A stretch of 64,000 bases of DNA from Anaerolineaceae bacterium (GTDB lineage: Bacteria; Chloroflexota; Anaerolineae; Aggregatilineales; Phototrophicaceae): assembly GCA_002699585.1 (NCBI GenBank), contig PABP01000011.1, positions 1 to 64,000 of the forward strand. The letters run 5' to 3'. Every line of letters begins with the position of its first letter. Position 1 is the first letter of the stretch. A program made the translations under genes and the position numbers. Below, piece by piece: positions 1,971 through 53,531 of this stretch. Under the pieces are notes generated by a model. The model did not search any database, was not told the DNA's origin, and saw only the letters and a list, made by a program, of their open reading frames with translations.

Positions 1971-2438
1971 TTAGGCGTTGAGCTTATCTAAAATCTCGAT
2001 CATGTCTTCGGTGGTCGGGATGTCCTGCATGCTTTTGCCAAAATGGGCAAATTGGATCATGCCGTTTTTATCGACCACCGTCTGCGAGGGCATACGCCCC
2101 AGCTTGAGCAGTTTCACCTGCTGCTTGTACATCTTGAGCACCGTATGCTTCGGATCCGGCAGGCCGATATACGGCAGGTCGTTCTCCTGGAAATACTTGG
2201 CGAACTTGTCCGCTGATTCCGGGCCAACGACCACTACTTCGGCATCCCGCTGAGTAAATTGGTCATAATCTTGGCGCAACTGCGCCATATGCGCGCGGCA
2301 GAAAGGTCACATGAAGCCGCGGTTGAAGACCAGTACCACATGCTTTTTACCCTTGAACTGCGAGAGCTGCACCTCGTTCCCCTGATAATCGGTCAGGGTG
2401 AAATCCGGTGCGACTTCGCCTTTTTCGATGTTCGACAT
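1971..2438 (-). CDS. Peroxiredoxin-like selenoprotein (in-frame UGA = Sec44)
   Basis: Thioredoxin-fold peroxiredoxin-like protein (AhpC/TSA family), predicted to reduce peroxides or act as a thiol oxidoreductase in the cytoplasm. An in-frame TGA (plus positions 2307-2309) separates two segments that join in the same frame into one normal-length protein of 155 residues. The junction reads NRGFM-U-PFCRAHMAQL; as I recall the Cys-containing homologues read RGFWCPFC, so the UGA falls on the peroxidatic Cys and leaves a U-x-x-C pair (Sec44, Cys47). The segment after the UGA keeps full family character (VVVVGPE, GRMPSQTVVDKNG). A SECIS-like hairpin lies at the expected distance downstream. The ATG at 2438 is chosen because AAGGA precedes it; upstream in-frame starts lack a ribosome site. 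Alternatives are a nonsense mutation or a base-call error. Confidence 0.82.
2272..2287 (-). promoter_or_regulatory. Candidate bacterial SECIS hairpin
   Basis: In the mRNA, UGGCGC-AGUU-GCGCCA forms a perfect 6-bp stem with a 4-base loop. The loop begins about 26 bases after the UGA and carries G at its second position. This fits what is known of bacterial SECIS elements: a short apical hairpin roughly 16-37 bases downstream with G among the first two loop bases. Confidence 0.7.
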
Positions 2439-2556
2439 CGCTGCATTGTCCTTCATAAATTGCAAGGTTGATACTGGGTCGTAGTTTAGTGCGACTGCCT
2501 TAGGCCAATGTGAGTATTTGCTCAGTTTTTCACAAATATGCACTCAGATACGGGGA

Positions 2557-52034: not shown

Positions 52035-53531
52035 ATGCGCACCCGTACGAAACAACCTGCAATTATCAATCATCATGCGGAAAGTCAGAAACGCGTGTTT
52101 GACGAACACAACCCGTTTTACTTAATCGAAGCCATCGATGTGCCGGTGATGGCCATCGCAACTGATGGGACCATCTTAGCCGCCAATCAACTCACTCTGG
52201 AAACCTTGAATCAGCCTCTTGAGCATCTGGTGGAGCATGCGGTATGGCAAATTTTCCGCAGTGACCCACCGCATGCACTCCAGAACGTTTTTAGCCCTTT
52301 AGACATCACCGCTTTCCCGATGCAAATGCAGCTCAGTTGGCAGTGCGAGGATGAAACATCGTGTATAGGGGAAACCACGCTGCGTGCCATCATTCAGCCG
52401 GATGGCAGCCAGTTAGTCTTATGCACTATCATCCAACTCATTGAAAGCCAGAATATTCTAGACAATGTGATTACCTATGGTGTCCTGGATAATATCCCGC
52501 AGCCGGTTGCCCTGGGTGATGAGAATGATTTGCTTCGCTATGGCAACCAGGCCTTCGCTGACTTGCTGGGCCGTCCGATTGAAGACTTAATCGGTACGTC
52601 GTTTCTCAATGTGATCGTTGAGGAAGAACGCGAGTTTGTAAAACCGCGCATCGTTGAACGGCATCAGGGCCAGGGCGATATTTATGAAACGACTATCTAT
52701 CATGCTGACGGATCAAGACGGTATATCATCATTGCTGCGTCGGCCATTATTGACCATGCGGGGCGCTATCATGGGGCGTTGTCATTCATCACGGATTTGA
52801 CCACCCAGAAGCAGACTGAACAGGATTTGCGTCGGACCAACTCCGAGTTGGATGCTTTCTCGCATACGGTCGCGCATGATCTAAAAAGCCCTTTGAGCGT
52901 TTTGCTCGGCTTTGCGGATTTGCTGGAAAATGAAATCACCAACCTGGATATAAACGACACAGTCGAGTATCTGCGGACGATGGGCCAGACGACGCAGAAG
53001 ATGATTAGCATCGTCGATGAATTGCTGTTGCTGTCACAGATGCGTAAAGCCGATGTCACCTTGCTGCCGGTGGATATGGAATTCACGGTGAACGAATCGC
53101 TGATGGGTTTGGCCTATTTGCGCTCACAACACAATGCGGAAATTACCGTCACGACTGACGAGTGGCCAGCCGCTTTTGGCTACCCGGCCTGGATTGAGGC
53201 TGTCTGGTCGAACTATATTTCCAATGCGATCAAATACGGTGGTGAACCCCCGCGCATTGAAATCGGCGCGACGGAAGAAGGCGATTGGGTCCGTTACTGG
53301 GTGCGTGACAACGGCGATGGCCTGACGCATGAGCAGATTAGTATGCTATTCAAGCCATTTGAGCGCTTGCATACTGAGCGGGCTAAAGGGCATGGCGTTG
53401 GCCTGACCATCGTGCAGCGCATCATGGAGAAGTTGGGCGGTCGCGTCCATGTGGCCAGTGAACCCGGCCAGGGCAGCGAATTCAGCTTTTTGCTCAAGCG
53501 TGTCCCACAGCCCAATGCCAACCAGCGCTAA
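52035..53531 (+). CDS. PAS-domain sensor histidine kinase
   Basis: 498-residue soluble sensor kinase with no membrane segments. Two N-terminal PAS-like regions (about 20-140 and 150-265; TYGVLDNIPQPVALGDENDL, GTSFLNVIVEEEREFVKPRI) precede a HisKA domain with the phospho-acceptor His about residue 282 in TVAHDLKSPLSVLLGFADLL and a HATPase_c domain (YISNAIKYGGEPPRI, RDNGDGLTHEQISMLFKPFE, GHGVGLTIVQRIMEKLGG). It probably senses a small molecule or redox state in the cytoplasm. No response regulator is adjacent. Confidence 0.92.
   Translation: MRTRTKQPAIINHHAESQKRVFDEHNPFYLIEAIDVPVMAIATDGTILAANQLTLETLNQPLEHLVEHAVWQIFRSDPPHALQNVFSPLDITAFPMQMQLSWQCEDETSCIGETTLRAIIQPDGSQLVLCTIIQLIESQNILDNVITYGVLDNIPQPVALGDENDLLRYGNQAFADLLGRPIEDLIGTSFLNVIVEEEREFVKPRIVERHQGQGDIYETTIYHADGSRRYIIIAASAIIDHAGRYHGALSFITDLTTQKQTEQDLRRTNSELDAFSHTVAHDLKSPLSVLLGFADLLENEITNLDINDTVEYLRTMGQTTQKMISIVDELLLLSQMRKADVTLLPVDMEFTVNESLMGLAYLRSQHNAEITVTTDEWPAAFGYPAWIEAVWSNYISNAIKYGGEPPRIEIGATEEGDWVRYWVRDNGDGLTHEQISMLFKPFERLHTERAKGHGVGLTIVQRIMEKLGGRVHVASEPGQGSEFSFLLKRVPQPNANQR

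Follow-up and report, generated by a model that had tools for sequence, protein, structure and literature searches.

An in-frame UGA in a peroxiredoxin-like gene of an Anaerolineaceae bacterium: a probable UxxC selenoprotein of a nearly all-selenocysteine subfamily

Introduction

A UGA codon inside an otherwise open reading frame may stand for selenocysteine (Sec), for a broken or misread gene, or for an altered genetic code. Such a codon lies in a redoxin-like gene on contig PABP01000011.1 of an Anaerolineaceae bacterium (assembly GCA_002699585.1), within the 64,000-nucleotide stretch of DNA that was analysed here and is called the window. A preliminary description of the locus, which did not give the strand, had proposed a peroxiredoxin-like selenoprotein with a U-x-x-C redox pair, in which the UGA would stand exactly at the position of the peroxidatic cysteine. 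In this study, we ask whether the codon is decoded as Sec and what kind of active site it would serve. We are highly confident, from the sequence evidence below, that this is a genuine selenoprotein gene with a UxxC peroxiredoxin-like (Prx-like) product.

Gene structure and selenocysteine machinery

The minus strand carries the gene and all its features. The gene occupies 1971..2438, encodes 155 residues followed by a TAA stop (1971-1973), and carries an AhpC-TSA/Redoxin domain in a frame that is uninterrupted once a single TGA (2307..2309, residue 44 in RGFM-U-PF-C) is read as an amino acid. Read with translation table 11, the same stretch falls into two ORFs, at 2307-2543 (78 aa) and 1971-2288 (105 aa). 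The start ATG (2436-2438) is preceded by a Shine-Dalgarno-like AAGGA at 2449..2453, 10 nt upstream, and homologues likewise begin with an ATG in the corresponding place or close to it. Three codons after the UGA, a TGC (2298..2300) encodes Cys47, the candidate redox partner in U-P-F-C, and a Gly-Arg-Met-Pro stretch (residues 114-117) is encoded at 2088..2099. The frame shared by both halves and the ribosome site of the preliminary description are thus borne out, and the same TGA recurs across relatives. A DDE transposase is encoded near the gene, at 16-1068 on the minus strand.

Searched against Rfam at the gathering score, the window gave no match; a script scan listed 12 sites with a UGA and a hairpin, of which the residue-44 site is the only one with the AGUU loop described below. 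Another of them, at 53404 on the plus strand, has a U-P-S-C motif and was taken as chance because it does not share the frame of the 498-aa ORF (52035-53531) in which it lies.

The source genome (6.7 Mb in 42 contigs) contains the full gene set for Sec. Its tRNA-Sec scores 72.8 bits and is called tRNA-SeC with anticodon tca by ARAGORN, while the matches to selA (565 bits), selB (344 bits) and selD (380 bits) all exceed their cut-offs, so that the four genes expected elsewhere in the genome, selA, selB, selC and selD, are all present. The selD gene is itself UGA-coded, with one in-frame TGA in CAG-U-ASKLG (L016, C35:514430-515365), and is followed after its UGA by a hairpin, GGCGCAG/CUGCGCC, whose stem is similar to that of the redox gene. 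The Sec trait is therefore present in the organism, and the redox gene is not its sole UGA gene.

In other genomes, selA tends to accompany the gene. In a draw of 400 genomes from the phylum, selA was present in all 43 genomes having the UGA form above 170 bits vs 322 of 400 overall (hypergeometric P 5e-5, the two genome lists being matched by eye). In the order set, selA was found in 14 of the 16 genomes with the UGA form. Two UGA-bearing genomes of this order, G066 and G072, gave no selA match at E<=1e-60, and both assemblies consist of hundreds of contigs; G066 has a tRNA-Sec, and the best tRNA-Sec-model matches of G072 (49.4 bits, cut-off 47) are tRNA-Ser according to ARAGORN.

Conservation of the UGA and selection on the downstream part

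Related genes mostly carry the same codon. Among 61 genomes, the source genome included, all eight matches with E below 1e-50 have one in-frame TGA. A search of 154 genomes of the order found it in 16 of 17 matches above 140 bits, the seventeenth (G063) being a fragment whose match begins after the UGA site, and in the phylum draw of 400 genomes the matches above 130 bits numbered 50, from 47 genomes, the in-frame TGA being present in 49 (46 genomes). The sole match without it comes from G385. When 57 fetched members were read codon by codon, TGA stood at the site in 56 and TGC in one, again G385; this 57-row alignment leaves out one fragment (L072), all fetched rows at or below 130 bits, and nine further phylum-draw matches above 130 bits that were not fetched. 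Cys47 is present in 57 of 57 aligned members. Two of the 49 TGA-bearing phylum matches contain a TAA inside the match (G415 and G343), and in the G415 member (L120) the frame ends at this codon, well short of the usual end. Judged from these sequences, the UGA reading is conserved in many related bacteria and is not a product of chance.

Selection acts on both sides of the codon. In all eight close pairs compared, dN/dS is 0.05-0.22 after the UGA and 0.05-0.33 before it, which indicates purifying selection on the part behind the UGA and argues that this part is translated. TGA serves as a true stop as well, since it ends 6 of 40 non-overlapping window ORFs of about 200 codons or more, and three genes of the family itself (L024, L026 and L056) terminate at a second TGA. 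The codon thus has two meanings, as Sec decoding requires.

The one TGC carrier, G385, does not serve as a clean negative control. In this genome, the match to selA is divided between two frames (L136 and L137, contig C6), and its two best tRNA-Sec-model matches (47.9 bits, above the cut-off, and 45.2 bits) are tRNA-Ser by ARAGORN. On the other hand, it has selB above the cut-off and another Prx-like gene, of the UMQC type, with a UGA in the active site. Its Sec trait looks damaged or misassembled rather than cleanly absent.

A covarying hairpin downstream of the UGA

A candidate bacterial SECIS hairpin lies at 2272..2287, with a 6-bp stem (UGGCGC/GCGCCA) and the loop AGUU. It spans bases 20-35 after the UGA, with 25 nt from the UGA to the loop, folds on its own at -10.0 kcal/mol, and in stem, loop length (4 nt) and spacing fits the bSECIS model as set out in the available part of PMC13188914. 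In an alignment of 46 sequences, the six stem pairs are kept in 276 of 276 cells, which come from related sequences and do not count as independent events; the set comprises the 49 sequences of the main register minus L051, L115 and L128, and includes L094, whose loop is AUUU. Three stem pairs have changed on both sides, from G-C to C-G in three sequences and from G-C to A-U in two and in one, and none of 500 shuffles reached the covariation score of the stem. Furthermore, with codon-preserving shuffles of 53 genes, the mean z was -1.49 for the stretch after the UGA and ranged from -0.19 to -0.63 for five control windows taken from these genes. One sequence of the main register, L051 (6001-6462, from a Poribacteria MAG), has its in-frame TGA at a U-P-S-C motif within a second redoxin-like domain. 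The Cys member (L110) does not have this hairpin.

The hairpin appears to leave its mark on the coding sequence. For the Leu at U+10, whose codon falls in the main-register loop, 45 of 49 sequences use TTG, a codon that makes up 106 of 747 Leu codons in the rest of these genes. In L121, Cys has replaced the Arg beside the loop and an A-U pair compensates for the change; this suggests a constraint of the RNA on the protein. A clade of 12 sequences (L097-L100, L102, L105-L109, L125 and L127) has a shifted hairpin with the loop core GUU, nine bases nearer the UGA. Sixteen bases separate the UGA from the loop there, the lower bound of the bSECIS model in the same part of PMC13188914. The clade shows one-sided changes and no double changes, so that for its stem the argument is one of pairing.

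These results bear on two readings in which the codon would not be Sec. A pseudogene created by a nonsense mutation, or a sequencing error, would leave two ORFs under standard translation, as is indeed seen, and its downstream remains would be decaying; a shared UGA in 56 of 57 members, the low dN/dS behind it and a covarying hairpin all speak against this, and we reject both the pseudogene and the sequencing error as extremely improbable. Reading of UGA as Trp in an altered code, or unspecific readthrough, would account for the open frame and for nothing else. It is contradicted by the TGA codons that end window ORFs and the three family genes just named, by the complete Sec machinery of the genome, and by the sole non-UGA member, which has Cys at the site; the chance that it is correct is again very slight, and it was rejected too. 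The reading preferred here, a selenoprotein with a U44-P-F-C47 pair, agrees with the preliminary description on this point.

Protein fold and active site

Both Pfam models of the superfamily recognise the product, PF00578 (AhpC-TSA) with 92.1 bits against a gathering score of 26 and PF08534 (Redoxin) with 74.1 bits, above its cut-off. No NCBIfam cut-off is reached by the window protein, the nearest model being SelL_rel_redox (NF040769) with 85.5 bits against 120. An AlphaFold2 model built from a five-row alignment has a pLDDT of 86, and its nearest solved folds are AhpE/Bcp with Z 20-21, which places the predicted structure in the peroxiredoxin fold. The 50 VIA-align rows listed are all peroxiredoxins. 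Foldseek matches of the model include ResA chains, which are also among the sequence matches. The product is probably cytoplasmic.

The active site departs from this fold's usual pattern. When the protein is aligned with Cys peroxiredoxins, by HMM as well as by MAFFT, U44 occupies the Thr/Ser column of PxxxT/SxxC and Cys47 the peroxidatic-Cys column, with two exceptions, namely PDB chain 3drn, which has Ser in the Cys47 column, and L078, which has G at the U44 column in the hmmalign row and T in that of MAFFT. The alignment with Cys homologues, which had been suggested as a check, therefore moves the UGA three residues ahead of the peroxidatic position at which the preliminary description had put it. 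The term "peroxiredoxin-like" remains apt for the fold and not for the motif, as PxxxTxxC is absent from all 57 aligned members, every one of which has Arg in the Pro column and Sec or Cys in the Thr column. A further column, with Arg in 7 of 10 aligned Cys peroxiredoxins, is Pro117 in 56 of 57 members (Arg115 being kept in 54 of 57), and we take it to be the column of the cis-Pro in thioredoxin and ResA. Since 41 of 57 members have only two Cys/Sec residues, U44 and C47 are likely to form the redox pair. Taken together, the register of U44 and Cys47, the Arg in the Pro column and Pro117 point to an active site, UxxC with Pro117, that in the model resembles that of ResA and thioredoxin on a peroxiredoxin fold. 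In a pair of this kind, a Sec that comes first typically serves as the nucleophile.

A peroxidase function overlaps with this explanation, under which the substrate may be a disulfide or a peroxide; Sec44 could be peroxidatic, as in the preliminary description, or Cys47 could be peroxidatic with Sec44 as its resolving residue. The fold closest to AhpE/Bcp, the Pfam AhpC-TSA match and the position of Cys47 in the peroxidatic column all fit a peroxidase. The lack of PxxxTxxC, with Arg in place of Pro and Sec or Cys in place of Thr throughout, and Pro117 where most of the aligned Cys peroxiredoxins have Arg, argue in the other direction, and we consider this reading possible but rather doubtful.

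For the ResA-like selenoprotein that we favour, the following mechanism may be proposed. With the downstream hairpin (bases 20-35 after the UGA) as its guide, SelB with Sec-tRNA-Sec would decode the codon at 2307-2309 as selenocysteine 44, to give a 155-residue protein of the peroxiredoxin fold with a thioredoxin/ResA-like U44-x-x-C47 site. Sec44, at the N-terminus of a helix, would act as the nucleophile and attack a disulfide or a peroxide; Cys47 would resolve the adduct through a Se-S bond, which a thioredoxin-type donor would reduce again. We hold these catalytic steps to be reasonably probable. As for the substrate, disulfide exchange is the slightly favoured reaction, and peroxide reduction has a real but somewhat less than even chance.

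Relation to known families

Bacterial selenoproteins that combine PF00578 with UxxC form an established class according to the accessible parts of PMC13188914, PMC9312934 and PMC2398784. By its sequence, the window protein belongs to a nearly all-Sec subfamily within the known class of "Prx-like thiol:disulfide oxidoreductase, PF00578, UxxC", an assignment made from domain and motif, with the reference member WP_010940744.1 outside the comparison. It shares PF00578 and UxxC with the Prx-like thiol:disulfide oxidoreductase selenoproteins (UxxC/UxxU), the "Prx-like 1" family of the GOS data, but differs in composition: Prx-like 1 comprised 225 Sec to 2,740 Cys forms in the portion of PMC2398784 available, whereas 56 of the 57 aligned members of the present subfamily have Sec. 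Sec peroxiredoxins (Prx), as described in the sources accessible in part, likewise have PF00578 and the peroxiredoxin fold, but their motif is TxxU with Sec in the Cys column, while in the window protein Sec stands three residues earlier and the Cys is retained. The SelL-related model NF040769 gives the best NCBIfam score, and each of the nine members scanned has a match to it (best E 3e-26), although its cut-off is missed by the window protein, the other eight members being judged by E-values only. ResA/TlpA thiol-disulfide oxidoreductases have a CxxC-type pair to which the UxxC can be likened; unlike them, the window protein has Sec for Cys, and a signal peptide is not obvious by eye.

In the accessible parts of PMC1794560, PMC13188914, PMC9312934, PMC2398784, PMC4918011, PMC5736913, PMC5029168 and PMC3281104, a search that lay mostly outside the subscription literature, no description of the subfamily was found. 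What may be new is a nearly Cys-free subfamily with a sliding SECIS and no NCBIfam model that reaches the window protein. A paralogous Prx-like subfamily (L111-L115, L128 and L142) has CPQC, in one case CYQC, or UMQC, and mixes Cys and UGA forms.

Distribution and evolution

In a quick tree, the window gene lies among UGA forms of its order and phylum, in a 13-row group with 86% SH-aLRT, and three changes between Sec and Cys are required across 66 rows. The copy of Thermomicrobium roseum, a species that GTDB places in Chloroflexota, groups with genomes of the phylum draw, so that Chloroflexota is very probably the phylum concerned. In the order search, the source genome is alone in its family in having a match above 100 bits, and many genomes of that family have selA and lack the redox gene; G001, of the same genus, gave neither a match to the gene at E<=1e-20 nor a selA match, and its best tRNA-Sec-model match is a tRNA-Ser by ARAGORN. 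Loss and horizontal transfer are both possible causes, and the quick tree decides for neither.

An upstream ORF cluster that includes an annotated alpha/beta hydrolase of T. roseum occurs at 11 of 45 loci and has no member in the window. From the plasmid collection came one clear member of the family, carried by the T. roseum megaplasmid, and among the other 96 plasmid records the 19 listed match at 25-35% identity. The close-peptide patterns matched none of the viral contigs, and a scan of genome contigs with exact peptide patterns returned seven distant relatives only, because such patterns are narrow. Among the relatives read from that scan, one, the Poribacteria gene L051, has an in-frame TGA.

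Significance

The sequence analysis supports the gene, its machinery, the conserved UGA, the SECIS, purifying selection and the predicted fold, and we infer the presence of Sec in the expressed protein. Standard annotation can cut or drop such genes. The T. roseum copy (L056:2501-2971, plasmid NC_011961.1) is annotated as a hypothetical protein of 43 aa, WP_012643006.1, that ends at the UGA, and the window protein stays below the NCBIfam cut-offs. With a profile built for this subfamily, annotation would be corrected in many genomes.

With one Cys form among 57 aligned members, the subfamily lends itself to the question of why Sec is retained in an enzyme, and its two hairpin registers are a natural experiment on the joint evolution of SECIS position and coding sequence. 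In the broader reading, which we regard as fairly probable, this would be a Sec-locked redox subfamily that extends across the phylum, is missed by NCBIfam models and is truncated in public annotation (e.g., WP_012643006.1). In one clade, its SECIS would have shifted over a distance of exactly three codons with the loop core kept, so that here it would be the RNA that constrains the protein and not the reverse.
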